Origin: Chitinophagaceae bacterium
GTDB taxonomy: Bacteria; Bacteroidota; Bacteroidia; Chitinophagales; Chitinophagaceae
Direction: 5' to 3'
Length of the DNA stretch: 64,000 nucleotides
Assembly (NCBI GenBank): GCA_019638615.1
Contig: JAHBTL010000003.1
Coordinates: forward strand, 62,001 to 126,000
In this document: positions 12,541 through 21,960 of the stretch, in pieces
Numbering within the stretch: the stretch's first letter is position 1
Layout: every line of letters starts with the position of its first letter
Translations under genes and position numbers: made by a program
The notes under the pieces: generated by a model
Database searches by the model: none
What the model saw: only the letters and a program-made list of their open reading frames with translations
Told to the model about the DNA's origin: nothing

Positions 12541-12601
12541 ATGATGAATCTATTCGTTTCTGGTATATTTTTATTGCCTAATTGTAAAGCAATTATTAAG
12601 T

Positions 12602-13243
12602 ATGGGAAATAAAATTGCAATTGCAGGAGCAGGCGGATTTTCCAAAGAGGTGTATCTTATAATAGAAGCAATCAACAAAATTGCACCTACTTGGGATTTT
12701 GTCGGGTTTTTCGACGATAAAGTTCCCAGGGGAAAGTTTTTTATGGATTTTGAAGTGTTGGGGAATATGCAGGATTTAAATAATACTAATGAGGATATAT
12801 ATGTTGCAGTTGCTGCAGGAAGGTCCGACAAGATTATTGCTATAGTTAATAAGTTAACCTCGCCCAAAATTTTTTTCCCAAACATAATCCATCCATCTGT
12901 CTTTCTTCATTTTGAAACCCTTACAGTGGGAGAGGGTAACATCATTCAGTCCGGATCATCTTTTTCGGCAGATAACCGGATTGGAAAATACAATATATTT
13001 AATGCATCTGTAAAAGTAGGGCATGATGCCATCATTGGTAATTATAATACATTTGCAACGGGAACGCTGATTTCCGGCGGTGTTGAAATAGGAGATCAAA
13101 ACAATTTTGGGATTAATTCCGGGATTCTCCAATATAAAAAGGTAGGAAATGGTAACACAATAGGTCCGTTGTCAATCTTATTTAAAAGCATTCGTGATAA
13201 TGGACATTACTTAGGTGTGCCGGCTTTGCCTACAGGTATATAA
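12602..13243 (+). CDS. NeuD-type sugar O/N-acyltransferase (first copy)
   Basis: A 213-residue protein with a PglD-like N-terminal Rossmann domain (KIAIAGAGGFSKEVY, residues 4-18) followed by hexapeptide-repeat turns forming a left-handed beta helix (about 95-200). NeuD/PglD enzymes transfer an acyl group, usually acetyl from acetyl-CoA, to a sugar amine or hydroxyl. It is immediately followed by an acyl carrier protein, so an acyl-ACP donor instead of acetyl-CoA is a reasonable inference but not shown. His in VGHDAI is the likely catalytic base. Confidence 0.85.
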   Translation: MGNKIAIAGAGGFSKEVYLIIEAINKIAPTWDFVGFFDDKVPRGKFFMDFEVLGNMQDLNNTNEDIYVAVAAGRSDKIIAIVNKLTSPKIFFPNIIHPSVFLHFETLTVGEGNIIQSGSSFSADNRIGKYNIFNASVKVGHDAIIGNYNTFATGTLISGGVEIGDQNNFGINSGILQYKKVGNGNTIGPLSILFKSIRDNGHYLGVPALPTGI

Positions 13244-13315: not shown

Positions 13316-13543
13316 ATGGATAAAGATGCATTTCTTAAGTCTTTTGCCGATCAGTTTGATGATACTGATCCGGCTTCGATTACTTTAGATACGAAATTCA
13401 AAGAACTTGAAGAATGGAGTTCTATGGTAGCCCTGATGATCATTGCTATGGCGGACGAAAATTACAATAAAAAAATAACCGGCGCCGATTTGAGGGAATC
13501 AGGCACCATCGGGCAATTGTATGAAAGGATCAGCTCCAGGTAA
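13316..13543 (+). CDS. Acyl carrier protein
   Basis: A 75-residue acidic helical protein of normal ACP length. The usual DSL phosphopantetheine site is replaced by EWSSM (residues 33-37). Ser36 aligns with the modified serine, with Met37 in place of Leu. This WSS/WSSL-type variant recalls the dedicated ACPs found beside adenylating ligases in secondary pathways and is not the housekeeping AcpP sequence. It should carry the acyl intermediate handled by the downstream ligase, SDR and KAS III proteins. The stop is immediately followed by a palindromic repeat. Confidence 0.85.
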   Translation: MDKDAFLKSFADQFDDTDPASITLDTKFKELEEWSSMVALMIIAMADENYNKKITGADLRESGTIGQLYERISSR

Positions 13544-13545
13544 TG

Positions 13546-13705
13546 GGGCTGACCCAAAAGGTCGTCATTGCGGTCCCGACCGCCCCGAACGTTCGGGGGA
13601 AGAAGCAGTCCCAAATATTTAAATCTTTATCAGTCAATGAGATTGCTTTCCCGACACAGTCGGGATTCCTCCCTAGAATACGTTCAACGACCTTTTGGTC
13701 AGCCC
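13546..13705 (+). repeat. Palindromic intergenic element (MITE-like)
   Basis: Terminal inverted repeats of about 19 bases lie at 13546-13565 (GGGCTGACCCAAAAGGTCGT) and 13687-13705 (ACGACCTTTTGGTCAGCCC); they match apart from one extra C. Inside are smaller palindromes: CCCGAACGTTCGGG near 13586-13601 and CCCGACACAGTCGGG near 13652-13667. It begins 3 bases after the ACP stop and separates the ACP from the ligase gene. A 61-codon open frame crosses it but is an artefact of the repeat. No transposase is inside. Confidence 0.75.
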
Positions 13706-13790
13706 TAAGGGATTTCAAAATTGTATAACACAGTAGTAATGGCTCATGCCTCTTGCCGGGACATATCCGGCTGAAGAAAATTTTTAATAA

Positions 13791-15209
13791 ATGAATAAAG
13801 ATGCTATCTATAGCAACAGCCCTTATTTCATTAAAAGGCTGCTCGTAAACTTCCAGGGATATAAAAACGCCAAAGGGCGATACGGAAAGCTTTTTGATTC
13901 TTATTTCGAACTGTTTAAAAGTCTCTGGACAAAAAGTGGTGAGGAACTGGAAGAGTACAGGAGCGGGGAATTAAAAAAATTATTGCTCGAATGCTACAGG
14001 TATTCAGAATGGTACAAAAAGAAGTTTGAGGCATTATCGGTATCTGAGGCAGATATCAATGATGATCCGTTCAAAGTACTTTACCAGCTTCCGTTGTTAG
14101 AAAAGCAGGAGAGGCGTCAGTTTGCAGAATCAATAAGAAATAATAACCCGGGCAGGCCCACAGTAGCTGTAGGCTTTACCAGCGGTACTTCCGGTTCTCC
14201 TACCATCAATTACCTGGATAAAGAATCAGTGAATTTGTCATTTGCATTATGGAAACGGTTTCACTGGGCCATCGGATTGCCTCTTAATCCCCGCACTGCA
14301 CGCTTTTCAGGCAGGATTATTGTGCATCCCAAAGCGGCGAAACCGCCTTTTTGGGTTTATAATTACTTTGAAAAACAAATTTACTTTTCAACGTATCATC
14401 TTACAGAACAGAACATGGGTTCCTATGTAAAAAAGCTGAATTCGTTTAAACCTGTGCTGATCGATGGCTACCCGTCTGCTATTTATGTACTGGCAGAATT
14501 TATTAATAAGAATAAGCTTTCATTGAATTTTAAACCAACGGCTATTGCTACTACCGCTGAAACATTGCATGACTATCAACGTGCGTCAATGGAAAAAGCC
14601 TTTGGCTGCAAAGTGTATAACCAGTATGCGAGCAGCGAAGGCGGAGCTTTTATTACTGAATGTAAAGAAGGTAAACTGCATGTAAATACCGATACCGGTA
14701 TTTTTGAATTTCTGAACCTCAATAATGAGCCGGCTGCTCCTGGCGAAATTGCACAGTTAGTAATGACCAGCTTCAGGAATTTCAAGACTCCCCTTCTTCG
14801 CTATAGAATCGGTGACACTGTTCTTTTACCCGAAAAGCAGATAAGCTGCAATTGCGGATGTAAAATGCCGATAATAGAAAAAATTACCGGCAGAGAAGAT
14901 GATATATTATGGACAAAGCAAAAAGGGTATGTGGGGAGAATGGATACGGCGTATAAAGGATTGGAAGGAATAGTCAAATCGCAGCTAATCCAGGAAAGTC
15001 CGGACAGTCTGATCGTTAATAATGTGGTGGATGAAAAATATTCAACGGAGTATGAAACAAAGCTCATAGCAAACCTTAAAAACAGGTTGGGGGATGATAT
15101 CCGGATTACAATTAACCTGATGAATGACATTCCTTTGTCTGCAAATGGAAAGTTTACAGCGGTAAAGCGGAAGTTTAAAATAGATAGTTTACTAAAAGAT
15201 AATGCATGA
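13791..15209 (+). CDS. PaaK/CapK-type acyl-activating ligase
   Basis: A 472-residue member of the phenylacetate-CoA ligase / CapK branch of the ANL adenylating superfamily. The ATP-binding loop TSGTSGSP is at about 129-136, an adenylation motif YASSEGG at about 277-283, and RYRIGDT and TGREDDI follow. PaaK-like proteins in capsule clusters are common but poorly characterised. Here the adjacent ACP makes loading of a carboxylic acid onto ACP or CoA the simplest role. Substrate is unknown. It overlaps an upstream in-frame start of the next frame by 8 bases. Confidence 0.87.
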   Translation: MNKDAIYSNSPYFIKRLLVNFQGYKNAKGRYGKLFDSYFELFKSLWTKSGEELEEYRSGELKKLLLECYRYSEWYKKKFEALSVSEADINDDPFKVLYQLPLLEKQERRQFAESIRNNNPGRPTVAVGFTSGTSGSPTINYLDKESVNLSFALWKRFHWAIGLPLNPRTARFSGRIIVHPKAAKPPFWVYNYFEKQIYFSTYHLTEQNMGSYVKKLNSFKPVLIDGYPSAIYVLAEFINKNKLSLNFKPTAIATTAETLHDYQRASMEKAFGCKVYNQYASSEGGAFITECKEGKLHVNTDTGIFEFLNLNNEPAAPGEIAQLVMTSFRNFKTPLLRYRIGDTVLLPEKQISCNCGCKMPIIEKITGREDDILWTKQKGYVGRMDTAYKGLEGIVKSQLIQESPDSLIVNNVVDEKYSTEYETKLIANLKNRLGDDIRITINLMNDIPLSANGKFTAVKRKFKIDSLLKDNA

Positions 15210-15258
15210 ATTTTCCGGTAATGGTAATATAACTTTAATAATTCAAGACGGTTTTCAT

Positions 15259-16020
15259 ATGGATCAAAGTTCTCCTTTTTCGTTATCCGGTAAAATATTT
15301 GTTGTAGCAGGAGCTTCTTCAGGTATTGGATTGGCCATATGCCATAGCATTGTAAAAGCCGGCGGTAAAGTAATAGGATTGGCAAGAAGAGAAGAAAGAT
15401 TACAGGCCATGGTTAATGAATTAGGTAAGGAAAACGCCTCGTATATAAAAGCTGATTTATCAAAAGATGAAGACATTACACATGTAGTGGATCAAATACC
15501 TGAAGTAAATGGTTATGTGCATGCTACCGGTATAATTAAATTATCGCCATTGAAATTTTTGAAGCGTGAAACGCTGGAAGAGATAATGAATGTGAACTAT
15601 TTTTCAATGGTTCTTACGCTTGCAGAAATGACGAAGAAGAAGAAAATAAAAAAACAGGCTTATTCTTCCATTGTTCTGATATCTTCTATTAATGCGCTTG
15701 TTGGTTCCAAGTCGAACCTGATGTATGCCGGAAGTAAAGGTGCCATGTCTTCGGCAAGCCGTGTTATAGCAAATGAACTGGCTGGTCAGAAGATACGGGT
15801 CAATACGATCAAGCCGGCTATGGTGGACACGGATCTGGCTTCGGATGTGCAGGATCTTCTTTCCAAAGAAACAATTGATAAAGATAAAGAGAGCTATCCC
15901 TTTGGATACGGTACACCAGAAGATGTGGCCAATACAACCGTATTTTTGCTTTCTGATGCTTCAAAATGGATAACAGGTCAATCCTTTATATTGGATGGCG
16001 GATGGCTTAATTTAGTATAA
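15259..16020 (+). CDS. Short-chain dehydrogenase/reductase (FabG-like)
   Basis: A 253-residue SDR from the ATG at 15259. It has a cofactor motif GASSGIG (18-24), Arg43/Arg44 after the second strand (favouring NADPH), Asn111 in NVNY and the catalytic set Ser142/143, Tyr156, Lys160 (YAGSK). The C-terminus SFILDGGWLNLV is typical of classical SDRs. It likely reduces a 3-ketoacyl thioester made by the following synthases. The frame stays open to 15202, inside the ligase gene, but family length favours the later start. NNAG is replaced by HATG. Confidence 0.88.
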   Translation: MDQSSPFSLSGKIFVVAGASSGIGLAICHSIVKAGGKVIGLARREERLQAMVNELGKENASYIKADLSKDEDITHVVDQIPEVNGYVHATGIIKLSPLKFLKRETLEEIMNVNYFSMVLTLAEMTKKKKIKKQAYSSIVLISSINALVGSKSNLMYAGSKGAMSSASRVIANELAGQKIRVNTIKPAMVDTDLASDVQDLLSKETIDKDKESYPFGYGTPEDVANTTVFLLSDASKWITGQSFILDGGWLNLV

Positions 16021-16030
16021 TAACAAGTAT

Positions 16031-17089
16031 ATGGCGCTACTGTATAATAAAAATGTTTCTGTCACCGGTATCAGTGCCTGTGTTCCCAGGGAAGTTGTGA
16101 GGAACCAGGATAACGGCGTGTTTGCAGAGAATGATATAAAGTCGTTTATCAGTAACGTGGGGATTGAAGAATACCGTGCCAGCGGCCCGGGGATATGCGC
16201 TTCCGATTTGTGTGTGGCCGCGGCAGAAAAGCTTATAGAAGATATGGGCATCAATAAGGAAGATATTGGGATAGTCGTATTTGTGTCCCAGTCGCCGGAT
16301 TACTACTTCCTGCCTAATACTGCCTGCATTATCCAGCACAGGTTGCATCTTAGCAAGGAAACGCTTGCTTTTGATGTGCCTCTGGGCTGCAGTGGTTATG
16401 TATATGGATTGAATATGATTGCCTCTTATCTTTCTTCCGGACAAATAAAAAAGGGTTTGTTGTTAGTAGGAGATACCGGATCGAAAACTACCAATGCTAA
16501 AGACAAAAGCAGCGCCCTTCTTTTTGGCGATGCCGGTGCAGCCACTATGCTTGAGTACGATCCTAACGCAAGCGGTATTCATTTTCATCTGGCAACCGAT
16601 GGATCCGGGTACAAAGCAATCATTGTTCCGGAGGGGGGATTCAGAAACAGGTTTTCGCACGAATCGCTTATTGAAAAGACCGATGCGGAAGGGTTGACGA
16701 GGTGTGGGATCAATGTTCATCTGGATGGGTTTGATGTTTTTTCTTTTGGCATTACTGAAGCGCCTAAAACGGTTAAAAAATTGACTGAGCATCTTGGTAT
16801 TACGAACGACCATATTGATTTTGCTGTTTTTCACCAGGCGAACAAAATGATGAATGAGAAAATAAGAAAGAAACTTGCGCTCCCGGAAGACAAGGTGCCC
16901 TATTCTTTAAAAAAGTTTGGCAACACCAGTTCCGCGTCTATCCCGCTTACAATTGTAACGGCATTGCGTGAACAATTACATAAGAAAAGTTCCAGTGTTA
17001 TTTTATGCGGGTTTGGAGTAGGCTTATCGTGGGGAACAGCCTATACGACTCTTGGCAATCTCTTTCTTTCTGAACTGGTTGAGTTATAA
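16031..17089 (+). CDS. 3-oxoacyl-ACP synthase III homologue, copy 1
   Basis: A 352-residue thiolase-fold enzyme with the full KAS III catalytic triad: Cys120 (PLGCSGYVYG), His268 (FHQANK) and Asn298 (GNTSSAS). KAS III enzymes condense an acyl-CoA starter with malonyl-ACP; some relatives in secondary pathways act as acyltransferases instead. It lies 10 bases after the SDR and 17 before a second KAS III, so all are one transcript. Housekeeping fabH would not normally sit in a polysaccharide cluster, so a dedicated role in building the acyl decoration is inferred. Confidence 0.92.
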   Translation: MALLYNKNVSVTGISACVPREVVRNQDNGVFAENDIKSFISNVGIEEYRASGPGICASDLCVAAAEKLIEDMGINKEDIGIVVFVSQSPDYYFLPNTACIIQHRLHLSKETLAFDVPLGCSGYVYGLNMIASYLSSGQIKKGLLLVGDTGSKTTNAKDKSSALLFGDAGAATMLEYDPNASGIHFHLATDGSGYKAIIVPEGGFRNRFSHESLIEKTDAEGLTRCGINVHLDGFDVFSFGITEAPKTVKKLTEHLGITNDHIDFAVFHQANKMMNEKIRKKLALPEDKVPYSLKKFGNTSSASIPLTIVTALREQLHKKSSSVILCGFGVGLSWGTAYTTLGNLFLSELVEL

Positions 17090-17106
17090 AAATTATTGAT
17101 ATTATT

Positions 17107-18123
17107 ATGCCGGTTGATATTGCAACCATATCCGCAGTAGCTTATTATTTTCCATCCGGTGAGCTTACGAATGAACATCTTAATGTTGAATTCCCGGAAT
17201 GGAGTGTTGAAAAAATCATGGCTAAAGTGGGTGTAAGCAACCGGCGGATAGCTGCTCAGGATGAATTTGCCTCGGACCTTGCCGTAAAAGCCGCTCAAAA
17301 GCTGTTTGCAGACAATAATGTTGATCCCGTCATTATTGATTATCTGATAGTATGTACCCAAAGTCCTGATTATTTTTTACCTGCTACTGCCTGTATTGTT
17401 CATCAACAGTTGCATTTGCCTGCAAAAGCAGGAGCAATAGATATCAACCAGGGCTGCTCTGGCTTTGTATATGGCTTGGGGTTAGCAAAGGGAATGATTG
17501 CTGCCGGGGATGCCACGAATGTCCTTTTAATTACAGCCGATACATACAGCAAATTTCTTCACCCCCTTGATAAAGGAAACCGGTCTATTTTTGGCGATGC
17601 GGCTGCTGCAACACTGGTCTCCTCGAACGGTGCAGGAGCAGCAGTAGGAAAAATGATTTTTGGAACGGATGGTAGTGGCGCCTCCAACCTGATTGTAAAA
17701 AACGGGGCGATGCGATCTCCCAAATCGGCAGATGTTGATTTGCATACAGATGAAAACGGGAATTTCTATAATGATAATTACCTTTTCATGAATGGTGCAG
17801 AGGTATTTAATTTCACACTTGAGTCTGTTCCGTCCCTCGTACGTCAGATACTTGAAAAGAATAACCTGATGCAAGACGAAATAGACGTTTTTATTTTCCA
17901 CCAGGCCAATAAATTCATGCTTGAATATTTAAGAAAAAAAATAAAAATTCCTGTTGAAAAGTTTTTTATATGGATGGAAACCTGCGGCAACACAGTTTCC
18001 AGTACAATACCCATTGCTATTTACCAGGCTATCAAAAATAATAATATTAAAAAAGGACATAAAGTACTGATCGCAGGTTTTGGAGTAGGCTATTCCTGGG
18101 GAGGGACAGTTTTATATTTTTAA
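17107..18123 (+). CDS. 3-oxoacyl-ACP synthase III homologue, copy 2
   Basis: A 338-residue paralogue of the preceding gene with an intact triad: Cys117 (NQGCSGFVYG), His265 (FHQANK) and Asn295 (CGNTVSST). The two proteins share architecture and motifs but differ clearly along their length, so this is an old duplication or paired recruitment. With two active-looking synthases the pathway could do two elongations, or this copy could condense while the other transfers the acyl chain. It lies 30 bases upstream of the sugar transferase gene. Confidence 0.92.
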   Translation: MPVDIATISAVAYYFPSGELTNEHLNVEFPEWSVEKIMAKVGVSNRRIAAQDEFASDLAVKAAQKLFADNNVDPVIIDYLIVCTQSPDYFLPATACIVHQQLHLPAKAGAIDINQGCSGFVYGLGLAKGMIAAGDATNVLLITADTYSKFLHPLDKGNRSIFGDAAAATLVSSNGAGAAVGKMIFGTDGSGASNLIVKNGAMRSPKSADVDLHTDENGNFYNDNYLFMNGAEVFNFTLESVPSLVRQILEKNNLMQDEIDVFIFHQANKFMLEYLRKKIKIPVEKFFIWMETCGNTVSSTIPIAIYQAIKNNNIKKGHKVLIAGFGVGYSWGGTVLYF

Positions 18124-18153: not shown

Positions 18154-18762
18154 ATGTATAAAAGATTTTTTAAAAGAGGGTTGGATTTACTTGTTGCTAC
18201 GATTGCTTTTCTGATTTTGTTCCCGGTATTCCTGATCATAACGCTTTTGTTATTGATTGCAAATTCGGGTAAGCCCTTCTTTTTTCAGGACCGGCCCGGC
18301 AGGAATGGTAAAATATTCAGGGTGGTTAAGTTTAAAACAATGAACGATAGAACTGGTGAAGACGGGAAGCTCCTGCCCGGAGAACTGCGGATCACCAGGG
18401 TTGGGAACTTTGCCAGGAAAACATCGCTTGATGAAATACCTCAGTTATTAAATGTAATAAAAGGCGACATGAGCCTGGTGGGGCCCCGCCCACTGCTTGT
18501 ATCTTATTTACCATTGTATAACGAAAAACAGAAAAGACGCCACGAAATAAGACCGGGCATTACCGGATGGGCCCAGGTAAACGGGAGAAACGCTATTAGC
18601 TGGGAACAAAAGTTTGAGTATGATGTTTGGTATGTTGACCATTATTCCTTTTCCCTGGATGTTAAAATCCTTTTTCTAACTGTTCTTAAAGTATTCAGAA
18701 GTGAAGGAGTAAACGCGGGTAAAATAGTAACAATGGAACCTTTTACAGGTTCCGGTTCGTAA
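18154..18762 (+). CDS. Undecaprenyl-phosphate sugar phosphotransferase (PglC-like)
   Basis: A 202-residue short bacterial sugar transferase: one membrane segment (about 12-34), then RPGRNGKIFRVVKFKTM, LDEIPQLLNVIKGDMSLVGPRP and PGITGWAQVNGRN. These are the catalytic signatures of monotopic phosphoglycosyl transferases. It should start the repeat unit by moving a phospho-sugar from UDP-sugar to undecaprenyl phosphate. The short PglC-type form commonly uses UDP-diacetamido sugars, which fits the aminotransferase and acyltransferase downstream. The exact donor is inferred. Confidence 0.92.
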   Translation: MYKRFFKRGLDLLVATIAFLILFPVFLIITLLLLIANSGKPFFFQDRPGRNGKIFRVVKFKTMNDRTGEDGKLLPGELRITRVGNFARKTSLDEIPQLLNVIKGDMSLVGPRPLLVSYLPLYNEKQKRRHEIRPGITGWAQVNGRNAISWEQKFEYDVWYVDHYSFSLDVKILFLTVLKVFRSEGVNAGKIVTMEPFTGSGS

Positions 18763-19025: not shown

Positions 19026-20054
19026 ATGGAACTACGACGTTTTATTTATTTACCTTATTATTTGTTAAGGACTCCCTGGGGACTCTTCTTTACTTTTTTT
19101 TCTTTTGTAAAGAAGAAAAAAGAAATTTCCGGCATTCAGTTGTTTACGGATTTATTCAAAAATGCTTTAAAATACAACGCTGCCCCTTTGGATTATTTTA
19201 CGCTTCGTTTATTTGATCTTCCTCCAAAAGAGCGTGCATTATTTGCCTGTACAGGATTTATGTATGAGTACCAGTTAAAAATGAATCCCCTTAAAGACAG
19301 ATCCGTTTTGCAGGATAAAATCGCGTTCCTGATCCACTTCAAAGACTTCTCGGGCCGTAAATGGGCGACTATAAAAATGCTTAAAGAAGACAGGACTTTG
19401 GCTGAGGAGCTTATTCGCAATCCGGAAAATAAGGTAGTTATAAAAAATGCCACCGGGCAGGCCGGTAAGCAGGTGCGGGTCATAGATACATCGAACCTGA
19501 ATGTTGAACAAGTCGTTGATCTCATGGAAAAGAATGGTTTCAATCTGTTAGAAGCATATGTTGTTCAGCATGACGATCTGATGAGATTGTCGCCTGCTGC
19601 TTTAAATACGGTTAGAATTGTTACACAATATAATGACGGGCAGGCGGAAGTGTTACTTGCCTTTATAAGGGTAAGTGTAAATTTGAGTATAGATAACTTA
19701 TCAGCGGGCAACTATGGGGCGAACTTTGGCGCTCCTATTGATTTAAAATCTGGTAAAATATCCGGGCCGGGTATGTATATAGACGTTACAAAAGCTGATG
19801 AATATTATCATCCGGTTACAAAAGTTAGTTTGGTAGGATTTCAGATCCCCCTTTGGAATGAAAGCATTGATTTAGCTAAAAAGGCTGCGAATCATACTCC
19901 TCAGAATCGATCTGTTGGATGGGATGTTGCAGTTACCAATCAGGGACCTGTTTTGATTGAAGGAAATCATAATTGGAATTATTTATCACAGCTTATGGGA
20001 AACAGAGGGTTGCGAAAGGAGTTTTTGCAATACACGTCAGACTCTTTAACTTAA
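19026..20054 (+). CDS. Sugar-transfer-associated ATP-grasp protein
   Basis: A 342-residue protein. The C-terminal two thirds match the ATPgrasp_ST family: NLLEAYVVQHDDL and LNTVRIVTQ near 180-205, SAGNYGANFGAPIDL near 233-247 and GWDVAVTNQGPVLIEGNHNW near 298-317 with the metal-binding Glu/Asn. ATP-grasp enzymes ligate a carboxylate to an amine or thiol through an acyl phosphate. In polysaccharide clusters this family is thought to attach amino-acid-like or acyl groups to sugars, but no precise reaction is established to my knowledge. A 263-base AT-rich gap precedes it. Confidence 0.82.
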   Translation: MELRRFIYLPYYLLRTPWGLFFTFFSFVKKKKEISGIQLFTDLFKNALKYNAAPLDYFTLRLFDLPPKERALFACTGFMYEYQLKMNPLKDRSVLQDKIAFLIHFKDFSGRKWATIKMLKEDRTLAEELIRNPENKVVIKNATGQAGKQVRVIDTSNLNVEQVVDLMEKNGFNLLEAYVVQHDDLMRLSPAALNTVRIVTQYNDGQAEVLLAFIRVSVNLSIDNLSAGNYGANFGAPIDLKSGKISGPGMYIDVTKADEYYHPVTKVSLVGFQIPLWNESIDLAKKAANHTPQNRSVGWDVAVTNQGPVLIEGNHNWNYLSQLMGNRGLRKEFLQYTSDSLT

Positions 20055-20120: not shown

Positions 20121-20771
20121 ATGGATAAGATAAAATTGTTTATAATCGGATGTGGAAATGTGGGTGCATTTGTTGCCTATAATTTTGAAGATTTTCAACT
20201 TTCTGATTTTGAAATGCACGGTTTTATTGATGATGAAACAAAAAAATGGGGTAAAACTTTTTTCGGTTATCCTGTTCTTGGCGGAGTTGACGAGATCATG
20301 CATCTGCAGCAAAAGACTGCAGTGGTTGTTACCATTTCTAATCCGTACGATAAAAAGAAAGTAATCAGCAAATTACTACCCAATAAAAATATTGTATTTC
20401 CTTCGCTGATCTCGCGGTACTCCTGGATATCTAAAAATGTTTTTGTGGGGAATGGCGTAATCGTTTATCCCGGTGTTTCAGTCAACTATCACACGCGTAT
20501 TGAGGACTATGTTATTATTAATATGAATTCGGCTATTGGTCACGACTGCCATATTCAGCGTTTTAGCACGCTGGCTCCTGGTGTATCGTTAGGAGGGTTC
20601 ACCTCTATAGGAGAATGCGTAGATATAGGAATAAATGCTGCTACGCGGCAATTTGTGAAGATTGGCAATAATTCTATTATAGGAGGTCTTGCAATGGTCA
20701 TTTCAGATTTACCTGATTCAATAACAGCAGTGGGAGTACCCGCCCGGGTAATTAAAGCGAAAAATAACTAA
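20121..20771 (+). CDS. NeuD/PglD-type acyltransferase (second copy)
   Basis: A 216-residue protein with an N-terminal nucleotide-sugar binding Rossmann segment (LFIIGCGNVGAFVAYNF, 5-21) and a hexapeptide-repeat C-terminal half. IGHDCHI near residues 136-142 contains the expected catalytic His. PglD-type enzymes acetylate the 4-amino group of UDP-4-amino-sugars. The aminotransferase that would make that amine follows 55 bases later, the usual PglD-PglE pairing. It differs from the first acyltransferase of the cluster, so the two probably have different acceptors or donors. Confidence 0.86.
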   Translation: MDKIKLFIIGCGNVGAFVAYNFEDFQLSDFEMHGFIDDETKKWGKTFFGYPVLGGVDEIMHLQQKTAVVVTISNPYDKKKVISKLLPNKNIVFPSLISRYSWISKNVFVGNGVIVYPGVSVNYHTRIEDYVIINMNSAIGHDCHIQRFSTLAPGVSLGGFTSIGECVDIGINAATRQFVKIGNNSIIGGLAMVISDLPDSITAVGVPARVIKAKNN

Positions 20772-20826: not shown

Positions 20827-21960
20827 ATGGATAAGAAAATCTGGCTATCATCTCCTCATATGGGAGGAAAAGAAAGGAATTATGTTACGGAAGCGTTCGA
20901 TACCAACTGGGTGGCTCCTTTGGGTCCGCATGTAAACGGGTTTGAAAAGGATATCAGTACTTTTCTTTCAGCAGGAAACAAAAATGAAATGCATGTAGCC
21001 GCCCTCAGTTCGGGAACGGCAGCAATACACCTGGGATTGATATTGCTGGGAGTAAAACCGGGCGATGAGGTGATATGTCAAAGTATGACCTTCTCTGCTT
21101 CAGCCAATCCTATTGCTTACCAGGGAGCAGCTCCCGTTTTTGTAGACAGTGAAGCTGATACATGGAACATGTCGCCAGCATTTCTGGAAGAAGCGATAAA
21201 AGACAGAATTGCAAAAGGCCGCAAGCCTAAGGCGATCATTCCTGTGCATTTATATGGCATGCCTGCTAAAATGGATGCTATTATGCAGATAGCAGGCAAT
21301 TACGAGATCCCTGTTTTGGAAGATGCGGCTGAGGCGCTGGGGAGCCATATTAACGGAAAAATGTGCGGTACTTTTGGAGTAATATCAGCGCTTTCTTTTA
21401 ACGGCAATAAGATCATTACAACTTCAGGAGGCGGCGCCCTGGTGGCGCATGATGCAAAAATAGCAGAAAAGGCAAGGTTTTTGTCGACGCAGGCGCGGGA
21501 TACTGCTCCGCATTACCAGCATTCGCATATTGGATATAATTACAGGATGAGCAATATATGTGCAGGAATAGGAAGGGGGCAGATGGAAGTATTACAGGAA
21601 AGAATAATGCAGAGAAGGGCGAATTTTGAATGGTATAAAAACGAACTGAAGGAAATTTCGGCTTTTGAATTTCCTGTTGACCCTGAGGGTTATTATTCCA
21701 ACCATTGGCTTACGACCGTGATTGTAAACGATCATAATGTTACGCGTGAAAAATTAAGGCTTGCACTGGAGGCGGTAAATATAGAAAGCCGGCCCTTGTG
21801 GAAGCCTATGCACAAACAACCGGTTTTTGCCGACGCCCCGTTTTACGGCGATGGCACATCGGAAACAATATTCGAGAAAGGGTTGTGCCTTCCTTCGGGT
21901 TCTAATCTTACACAAGAAGAAAAAGACAGGATTTTAAAGGAAATAAAAGCATTCTTTTAG
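20827..21960 (+). CDS. DegT/DnrJ/EryC1/StrS sugar aminotransferase (PglE-like)
   Basis: A 377-residue PLP aminotransferase with the DegT-family features SSGTAAIHLGL near 60-70, EDAAEALGS near 165-173 and the PLP lysine Lys195 in SFNGNK. These enzymes convert 4-keto-6-deoxy NDP-sugars to 4-amino sugars with glutamate as donor. It ends the cluster. The 4,6-dehydratase that makes the keto substrate is not present anywhere in the window, so it must be supplied from another locus. Confidence 0.92.
   Translation: MDKKIWLSSPHMGGKERNYVTEAFDTNWVAPLGPHVNGFEKDISTFLSAGNKNEMHVAALSSGTAAIHLGLILLGVKPGDEVICQSMTFSASANPIAYQGAAPVFVDSEADTWNMSPAFLEEAIKDRIAKGRKPKAIIPVHLYGMPAKMDAIMQIAGNYEIPVLEDAAEALGSHINGKMCGTFGVISALSFNGNKIITTSGGGALVAHDAKIAEKARFLSTQARDTAPHYQHSHIGYNYRMSNICAGIGRGQMEVLQERIMQRRANFEWYKNELKEISAFEFPVDPEGYYSNHWLTTVIVNDHNVTREKLRLALEAVNIESRPLWKPMHKQPVFADAPFYGDGTSETIFEKGLCLPSGSNLTQEEKDRILKEIKAFF

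Follow-up and report, generated by a model that had tools for sequence, protein, structure and literature searches.

In this study, we describe five consecutive genes in a polysaccharide cluster of a Chitinophagaceae bacterium which, judging from their sequences, most likely form a fatty-acid-like assembly line making a short hydroxylated acid for surface sugar decoration. The cassette is probably a minimal line, dependent on an acyl carrier protein (ACP), for the N-acyl group of an O-antigen 4-amino sugar, with an adenylating ligase as an accessory. In gene content its core is of a kind already known from a pathway proposed for Flavobacterium psychrophilum, and the new part is the added ligase, which was exchanged together with the ACP gene; the whole most likely represents a known type of pathway in a variant form, to which adenylation has been added as an optional step.

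Gene content of the cassette and its surroundings

The window analysed here is the whole stretch of 64,000 nt, and all coordinates refer to it. Genes for an ACP, a ligase, an SDR and two KAS III proteins follow one another as five ORFs on the plus strand with intact catalytic motifs, just as the preliminary description had placed them. The dedicated ACP (13316..13543, 75 aa) matches PF00550 with 21.6 bits (cut-off 20.8), and the second S of its variant EWSSM site is the phosphopantetheine serine, Ser36, invariant together with W34 in 17 of 17 homologues. The ligase (13791..15209, 472 aa) is followed by a predicted SDR ketoreductase matching PF13561/PF00106 and carrying the motifs GASSGIG, YAGSK and ARR. 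The ORF of the SDR spans 15202-16020, but its start more likely lies at 15259 (15259..16020, 253 aa), since the SDRs of the related loci L119, L120, L139 and L140 measure 253-259 aa. KAS1 (16031..17089) and KAS2 (17107..18123) both match PF08545 and PF08541, and the full Cys-His-Asn triads attributed to them earlier are invariant in aligned homologues (C120/H268/N298 over 11 sequences for KAS1, C117/H265/N295 over nine for KAS2, which matches PDB 3gwa with E 1.2e-108). A further ORF, 13543-13728, can very probably be discounted as a gene, because the 247-bp gap between ACP and ligase (98 bp in L119) holds a dispersed palindromic repeat (13546..13705, no strand applicable) with inverted arms at its ends; the stretch 13544-13770 has 46 matches in its own genome, the window's copy included. 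No Rfam family matched the window at gathering thresholds.

The neighbours of the cassette, likewise on the plus strand, are a NeuD/PglD-type acyltransferase, a priming transferase and a PglE-type aminotransferase. NeuD1 (12602..13243), a hexapeptide N-acyltransferase with a PglD_N domain (PF17836) and a GH[DE] motif at residue 140, reaches 140 bits against TIGR03570, below the cut-off of 160.8; it is the likely partner of the cassette, and also stands directly 5' of the ACP gene in L119, L120, L139, L140, L142 and L071. The priming sugar-phosphate transferase (18154..18762; PF02397, 207 bits) is followed by a sugar-transfer associated ATP-grasp protein (19026..20054; PF14397, 155.5 bits), probably a separate and variable decoration gene, and by NeuD2 (20121..20771; TIGR03570, 170.5 bits, above cut-off), a second, variable PglD-type acyltransferase; no counterpart of either is labelled in L119. 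The placement of the five genes between NeuD-type transferases and the priming transferase therefore stands for NeuD1, which lies upstream, and not for NeuD2, which lies downstream of the priming transferase. The DegT aminotransferase (20827..21960; PF01041; PDB 1o61, E 1.4e-95, and 4ztc, E 1.2e-94) likely makes the 4-amino sugar, and a CapD/PglF-like protein of 674-675 aa is encoded outside the cluster on the same contig, approximately 10 kb before the window start, so that gene types required for UDP-4-amino sugar synthesis are represented.

In the bacillosamine pathway of Campylobacter jejuni, a dehydratase and PglE make a 4-amino sugar, which is then N-acylated by PglD. The window would follow the same sequence of dehydratase, PglE-type enzyme and N-acylation, but PglD is an acetyltransferase and we infer an acyl-ACP donor here. 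The C. jejuni PglD/PglE/PglF pathway is also described in PMC6519341.

A published counterpart and the distribution of the core

In F. psychrophilum, Cisar et al. 2019 assigned wfpC-wfpG to the synthesis of a 3,5-dihydroxyhexanoyl group in a proposed pathway, in which wfpC and wfpE encode KAS, wfpD the ACP, wfpF a reductase and wfpG a PglD homologue; the locus also has pglE, pglF and a PglC-like priming transferase, and the 3,5-dihydroxyhexanoyl product was observed by NMR (PMC6519341, which names the accessions MK214915-MK214917 for these genes). In gene content, the basis of comparison rather than the proteins, the window resembles this locus, having two distinct KAS, a dedicated ACP with its attachment serine, a predicted ketoreductase, an adjacent PglD-like NeuD1, PglE-like and PglF-like proteins (the latter encoded approximately 10 kb before the window) and a priming transferase. 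The arrangement is different: the genes for ACP and SDR have that of a PaaK-type ligase between them ("ligase" is absent from the main text of PMC6519341), the two KAS genes are direct neighbours, NeuD1 comes before the ACP, and the PglF-like protein is encoded away from the cluster. Within the literature passages searched, which exclude most subscription journals and include ones from PMC5601056, PMC3210612 and PMC8074265, such an O-antigen cassette is described in PMC6519341 only. The preliminary description had proposed a short hydroxylated acyl chain built on the ACP and moved by a NeuD-type enzyme to a 4-amino sugar, and had suggested a comparison with known O-antigen acyl clusters. The core gene content is that of wfpC-wfpG, and together with this precedent it supports the proposed route, but the novelty implied for an ACP with two KAS III finds no support, the same gene content having already been assigned in F. 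psychrophilum.

Of 395 Bacteroidota genomes sampled, 25 had KAS1 homologues. Among the 24 besides the window's, 20 loci of up to 20 kb were opened (G217, G342, G374 and G380 being left out), and an ACP was near the KAS in all 20, mostly beside polysaccharide genes. With HMMs built from the sequences of this analysis, which give rough counts, an ACP was found within 4.5 kb of the KAS in 78 of 79 named loci (an 80th, L157, was dropped for lack of a scorable KAS), and ACP and SDR together in 70 of 79. No F. psychrophilum locus is among the 80. At least one scored sugar-pathway marker was present in 41 of the 57 named loci of at least 15 kb and none in 16, a count that understates the polysaccharide context because glycosyltransferases of other families escape the GT4 model; the homologues do not, then, occur mainly outside polysaccharide clusters, the pattern named earlier as evidence against the proposal. 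Linkage of NeuD, priming transferase and DegT genes to the cassette recurs across Bacteroidota. Every protein but the ligase is from a family that also serves fatty-acid synthesis, and it could be argued that ordinary genes of that pathway lie in a polysaccharide cluster by chance. However, this recurrent linkage speaks against such an explanation, and around the four other KAS III of the genome (12-18 kb, same models, a small-ORF ACP scan included) there was no match for ACP, SDR, hexapeptide, DegT or sugar transferase. We reject chance placement of housekeeping genes on the lack of such companions, and regard it as extremely improbable.

A FastTree phylogeny of 95 KAS (93 picked from the 221 found), in which some forks are open, places KAS1 and KAS2 in separate parts, and the window and its five closest tree relatives have one of each. 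The Flavobacterium loci L239 and L242 show the order PGT-KAS-ACP-KAS-SDR-HEX-PGT-DegT-CapD; their KAS other than the KAS2-side one sits on a long branch, and is therefore no close relative of the window's KAS1. A two-KAS cassette beside PGT and DegT is also present in L163, from the environmental species Flavobacterium xinjiangense. Cassettes with a single KAS beside ACP, SDR and hexapeptide transferase draw it from the KAS1 side in L078, L080 and L082 and from the KAS2 side in L235. A strict rule tying each branch to one of the two condensations is unsupported: single-KAS cassettes use either side, so that the branches cannot be firmly assigned and the two KAS may be alternatives. That they are isofunctional or alternative, with 3-hydroxybutyryl as the only product, nevertheless seems unlikely to us, as the window and its five closest tree relatives all retain both next to each other, and the published two-KAS cluster yields a C6 chain (PMC6519341).

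The ligase and its exchange with the ACP

Compared with Pfam at E 0.001, the ligase matched no family. It matches PaaK-type NCBIfam models (TIGR02304, FlxY), all below cut-offs, and PDB PaaK 4r1l with E 4.5e-16, and these similarities together with its adenylation motifs place it among the PaaK/CapK adenylate-forming enzymes, as first described. It had been treated as an integral part of the cassette, but the core occurs without it in close relatives: L139, L120, L140 and L142 are ligase-free and share with the window the order NeuD1-ACP-SDR-KAS1-KAS2-PGT. L139 holds 12 of the 13 compared cluster genes, all but the ligase, with protein identity of 63-90% and an ACP-SDR gap of 84 bp. A PaaK-type ligase lies no more than 4.5 kb from a KAS in one of 126 partly redundant KAS-bearing loci, of the same genus, the window being excluded (the 126 are the sum of sets of 20, 7, 79 and 20 that overlap, e.g. 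L141 and L121), and as a conserved core member it is rejected. A further ligase match of 27% is present in L216, farther off within its locus. The preliminary reading is accordingly retained for its short acyl route, and not for its novelty or the integral role of the ligase.

We consider the chances evenly balanced that the ligase acts independently, as a CapK-type enzyme modifying polysaccharide (it might activate an acid for another sugar, for instance), and that its position in the operon is incidental. Homologues (E 1e-40) are found in 27 of 294 family genomes, of which just two, both of this genus, also have KAS1 (E 1e-70). Among 18 opened ligase loci, 15 have at least one GT4-type gene and none a KAS, and the only ACP candidate is one weak ACP-like ORF, separated from the ligase by approximately 7.6 kb. 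Of the 25 genomes with KAS1 in the phylum sample, 8 also match the ligase (E 1e-20); leaving the window's own genome aside, the match is on another contig or more than 1 Mb away in all seven. Ligases of glycan clusters (e.g. L031, L126, L137) are of the same family with approximately 32-58% identity, but no ACP or KAS is labelled near them; this includes the nearest homologue found outside the genus (58%), which lies in a glycosyltransferase cluster. Against an independent enzyme stand the position of the ligase between ACP and SDR and its joint exchange with the ACP.

The evidence for this exchange comes from L119, whose ligase copy is 95% identical. Pairwise in 60-bp bins, a block covering most of the ACP, the ligase and the SDR start (13380..15330, no strand applicable) has mostly 87-98% DNA identity to L119 (80-82% in the lowest full bins), few columns being aligned across the repeat, and its flanks have approximately 59-77%, except for one bin of 84% at 12600. 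Synonymous divergence from L119 is 0.55 for the ACP and 0.323 for the ligase, and 2.8 or saturated for NeuD1, SDR, KAS1, KAS2 and DegT. A high-identity patch common to ligase and ACP between two species shows that they moved together, and the block is a recent ACP-ligase exchange between related species.

This shared block is also what favours placing the ligase within the line, where it would adenylate a free carboxylic acid and load the dedicated ACP, directly or via CoA, with an alternative starter. Consistent with that role, the adenylation motifs are kept and the sequence is under constraint (dN 0.025, dS 0.323), and PF00501-type ligases scoring above 100 bits with our own model were located in 14 of the 79 named loci (Pfam confirmed three of these), on the same strand as a KAS and at most approximately 3.3 kb from it, several of these loci also carrying a second ACP. 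Bacteroidales cassettes such as L191 and L216 resemble the window in having an adenylating ligase beside ACP and KAS, but theirs is of the PF00501 type and comes with a second ACP, whereas the window's is of the PaaK type. On the other hand, relatives manage without the ligase, its homologues elsewhere sit in clusters with no ACP nearby apart from the weak ORF mentioned above, the 58% homologue is among glycosyltransferases, and a chance recombination tract including the ACP would look identical. We therefore hold starter loading to be possible but somewhat improbable. A little more doubtful is the wider proposal that the ACP-ligase pair is a mobile starter-switching module, in which the ligase would prime the ACP with a scavenged acid, giving a different N-acyl group and a new serotype, and for which more than one ligase family would have been recruited in Bacteroidota.

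Proposed pathway and its meaning

We infer the order of steps, the chain length, the acceptor and the role of the ligase as follows. One KAS III would condense acetyl-CoA with malonyl-ACP, and the SDR would reduce the first condensation product to 3-hydroxybutyryl-ACP; the second KAS III would add a further malonyl unit, and renewed reduction by the SDR, without the action of a dehydratase, would give 3,5-dihydroxyhexanoyl-ACP. NeuD1 would transfer the chain to N-4 of UDP-Qui2NAc4N, the product of the PglF-like and PglE-like enzymes, and the priming transferase would begin the repeat unit with the acylated sugar. The PaaK-type ligase would be an accessory, dispensable for this 3,5-dihydroxyhexanoyl route.

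The acyl route proposed for a fish-associated bacterium is thus mirrored in gene content across Bacteroidota. Some of the cassettes have one KAS and others two, and some include an adenylating ligase or a Rieske oxygenase in addition. They provide a hypothesis, open to testing, that links genes to structure for the unusual N-acyl groups of surface sugars. If the ligase does load an alternative starter, the acyl group of ligase-bearing strains would differ from that of their ligase-free relatives, and the natural ligase-plus and ligase-minus pairs offer a means to find what the ligase contributes.

Cassette genes and their precedent

Open reading frames and domain matches recovered all five cassette genes at the positions and in the families assigned by the preliminary description, namely an acyl carrier protein (ACP, 13316-13543), an adenylating ligase (13791-15209), a short-chain dehydrogenase/reductase (SDR) and two KAS III genes, KAS1 (16031-17089) and KAS2 (17107-18123), all on the + strand. 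Its claim that both KAS III proteins keep full Cys-His-Asn triads was borne out by alignment, the catalytic residues being intact and invariant in KAS1 (Cys120/His268/Asn298, 11 sequences) and KAS2 (Cys117/His265/Asn295, 9 sequences). In the ACP, the attachment residue is Ser36 (the latter S of EWSSM), which is invariant in 17 of 17 homologues. The SDR, for which a start at 15259 (253 aa) suits the relatives (253-259 aa) better than 15202, carries GASSGIG, YAGSK and ARR; the ligase, by its sequence a PaaK/CapK-type enzyme, carries TSGTSG, YASSEG, YRIGD, GREDD and a C-terminal GK, motifs whose functional meaning we presume. The gap between ACP and ligase is 247 bp, versus 98 bp in L119, a ligase-bearing cassette of the same genus, and holds a dispersed palindromic repeat (13546-13705) with 46 matches in its own genome, its own copy included.

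According to Cisar et al. (PMC6519341), wfpC and wfpE of Flavobacterium psychrophilum encode two 3-ketoacyl-ACP synthases, wfpD an ACP, wfpF a reductase and wfpG a PglD homologue, and wfpC-wfpG were assigned, as the authors' prediction and not by biochemical test, to the 3,5-dihydroxyhexanoyl group of Qui2NAc4NR, a structure determined by NMR. The 3,5-dihydroxyhexanoyl group has also been reported on this type of sugar for Vibrio cholerae O3 (PMC3210612) and for O3 and O100 (PMC8074265). Given the wfpC-wfpG precedent, the core of the window cassette is thus of a known kind by gene content. The 80 named loci, 79 of them with a scorable KAS, include none from F. psychrophilum. Two Flavobacterium loci (L239 and L242), ordered PGT-KAS-ACP-KAS-SDR-HEX-PGT-DegT-CapD (PGT, priming sugar-phosphate transferase; HEX, hexapeptide transferase; DegT, aminotransferase; CapD, PglF-like dehydratase type), contain the same gene kinds as the published set; of the two KAS in each, one is no more than a distant relative of the window's KAS1 in the tree.

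In that tree of 95 KAS proteins, KAS1 and KAS2 fall in separate parts. Both parts are represented, by one KAS each, in the window and in the five relatives nearest to it in the tree, and single-KAS cassettes draw theirs from one part or the other. Our hypothesis is that a C4 chain results from a single KAS and a C6 chain from a pair.

Distribution and company of the core

KAS1 homologues were found in 25 of 395 Bacteroidota genomes (E 1e-60 or better) and in 9 of 294 family genomes (1e-70 or better), the window's genome included in both counts. Among the loci opened, 20/20 phylum, 6/7 family, 78/79 named and 19/20 Flavobacterium loci had an ACP no farther than 4.5 kb from a KAS. Among the 79 named loci, 70 had ACP and SDR, 58 at least two KAS and 39 a hexapeptide transferase. 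Scored polysaccharide marker kinds numbered at least one in 41, at least two in 36 and none in 16 of the 57 named loci of at least 15 kb, and at least one in all 20 and at least two in 16 phylum loci. None of the cassette companions was found around the four other KAS III genes of the window's genome.

An additional Rieske/ring-hydroxylating oxygenase stood beside ACP, KAS and SDR in many opened Flavobacterium cassettes (for example L067 10605-11687 and L163 8681-9766); a model built in this analysis detected it in 15 of the 79 named loci and in 10 of the 20 from Flavobacterium, and it perhaps hydroxylates the acyl chain or the sugar. In L162, L165 and L183 the order KAS-ACP-KAS-SDR is followed by a gene of about 308-319 aa, GT2-like by eye in L183. 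None of the scored O-antigen markers lies near these sets, so the cassette may have a part in making other glycans or lipids too. KAS1-like cassettes also occurred outside Bacteroidota (L159, L173, L202, L205, L211, L217), in records whose titles include Treponema, Chitinivibrionia, Lentisphaeria, Fibrobacter, Thermoguttaceae and Methylobacillus; five of the six are MAGs, and transfer or misbinning may account for these occurrences.

The ligase as an accessory gene

Ligase homologues occurred in 27 of 294 family genomes (E 1e-40), yet in only two of the nine with KAS1, G000 and G506, both of the window's genus. At the laxer 1e-20 used for the phylum sample, 56 of 395 genomes matched, including 8 of the 25 with KAS1, above the 3.5 expected under independence. 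Six of these eight, however, come from a single genus (g20, that of G174) and match weakly (E about 1e-23 to 1e-28), and all seven besides the window's genome have the match on another contig or more than 1 Mb from the KAS. Across 126 partly redundant KAS-bearing loci (phylum, family, named and Flavobacterium sets), a PaaK/CapK-type ligase lay within 4.5 kb in one, L119 from G506. The closest relative by both KAS, L139, shares 12 of 13 window genes compared at 63-90% protein identity (wzy, wzx, GT4, NeuD1, ACP, SDR, KAS1, KAS2, PGT, ATP-grasp, NeuD2 and DegT), the ligase being the sole absentee. Among 18 opened ligase loci without the cassette, none had a KAS, a single one had an ACP-like ORF, weak and some 7.6 kb away from the ligase, and 15 had at least one GT4-type gene. 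Its rarity near KAS, its absence from L139 and these KAS-free loci therefore show the ligase to be accessory.

The ligase travels with the ACP. DNA identity between the window and L119 is about 60-77% over NeuD1 and the beginning of the ACP (84% in a single bin, the first), rises to mostly 87-98% between roughly 13380 and 15330, and falls back to about 59-75% past that stretch. The ACP has a dS of 0.55 and the ligase one of 0.32, whereas the five neighbours compared reach 2.8 or are saturated. The block might be a chance recombination tract; it roughly tracks gene borders, limits that fit a functional ACP-ligase pair. The ligase is under purifying selection (dN 0.025, dS 0.323).

A PF00501-type ligase (>100 bits), on the KAS strand and no more than about 3.3 kb from a KAS, was present in 14 of 79 named loci, several with the order ligase-ACP-KAS, and was confirmed by Pfam in L191, L216 and L155; adenylating ligases have therefore probably joined such cassettes more than once. 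In Bacteroidales cassettes, a second ACP and second KAS adjoin the AMP-binding (PF00501) ligase (L191 12581-15302; L216 11797-13465).

Proposed acceptor sugar and product

The cassette is preceded by a Wzx-like flippase, a GT4 and the hexapeptide N-acyltransferase NeuD1 (12602-13243), and followed by the priming transferase, an ATPgrasp_ST protein (19026-20054), a second such acyltransferase, NeuD2 (20121-20771), and a DegT aminotransferase; among solved structures, the latter's best relatives are 1o61 and 4ztc, which we take to be Campylobacter jejuni PglE. Because this PglE-like gene shares the contig with a CapD/PglF-like protein (674-675 aa, about 10 kb before the window), UDP-Qui2NAc4N is a plausible acceptor. 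Neither the ATPgrasp_ST protein nor NeuD2, whose genes separate the priming transferase gene from the PglE-like one, has a labelled counterpart in the related L119 cluster, which suggests a second variable sugar decoration.

The ligase is an optional part of the cassette, starter loading and a separate decoration being its candidate roles. In the best-supported reading, the cassette is an ACP-dependent line with two KAS that would provide a 4-amino sugar with an N-acyl group of the 3,5-dihydroxyhexanoyl type, the pathway put forward for F. psychrophilum.
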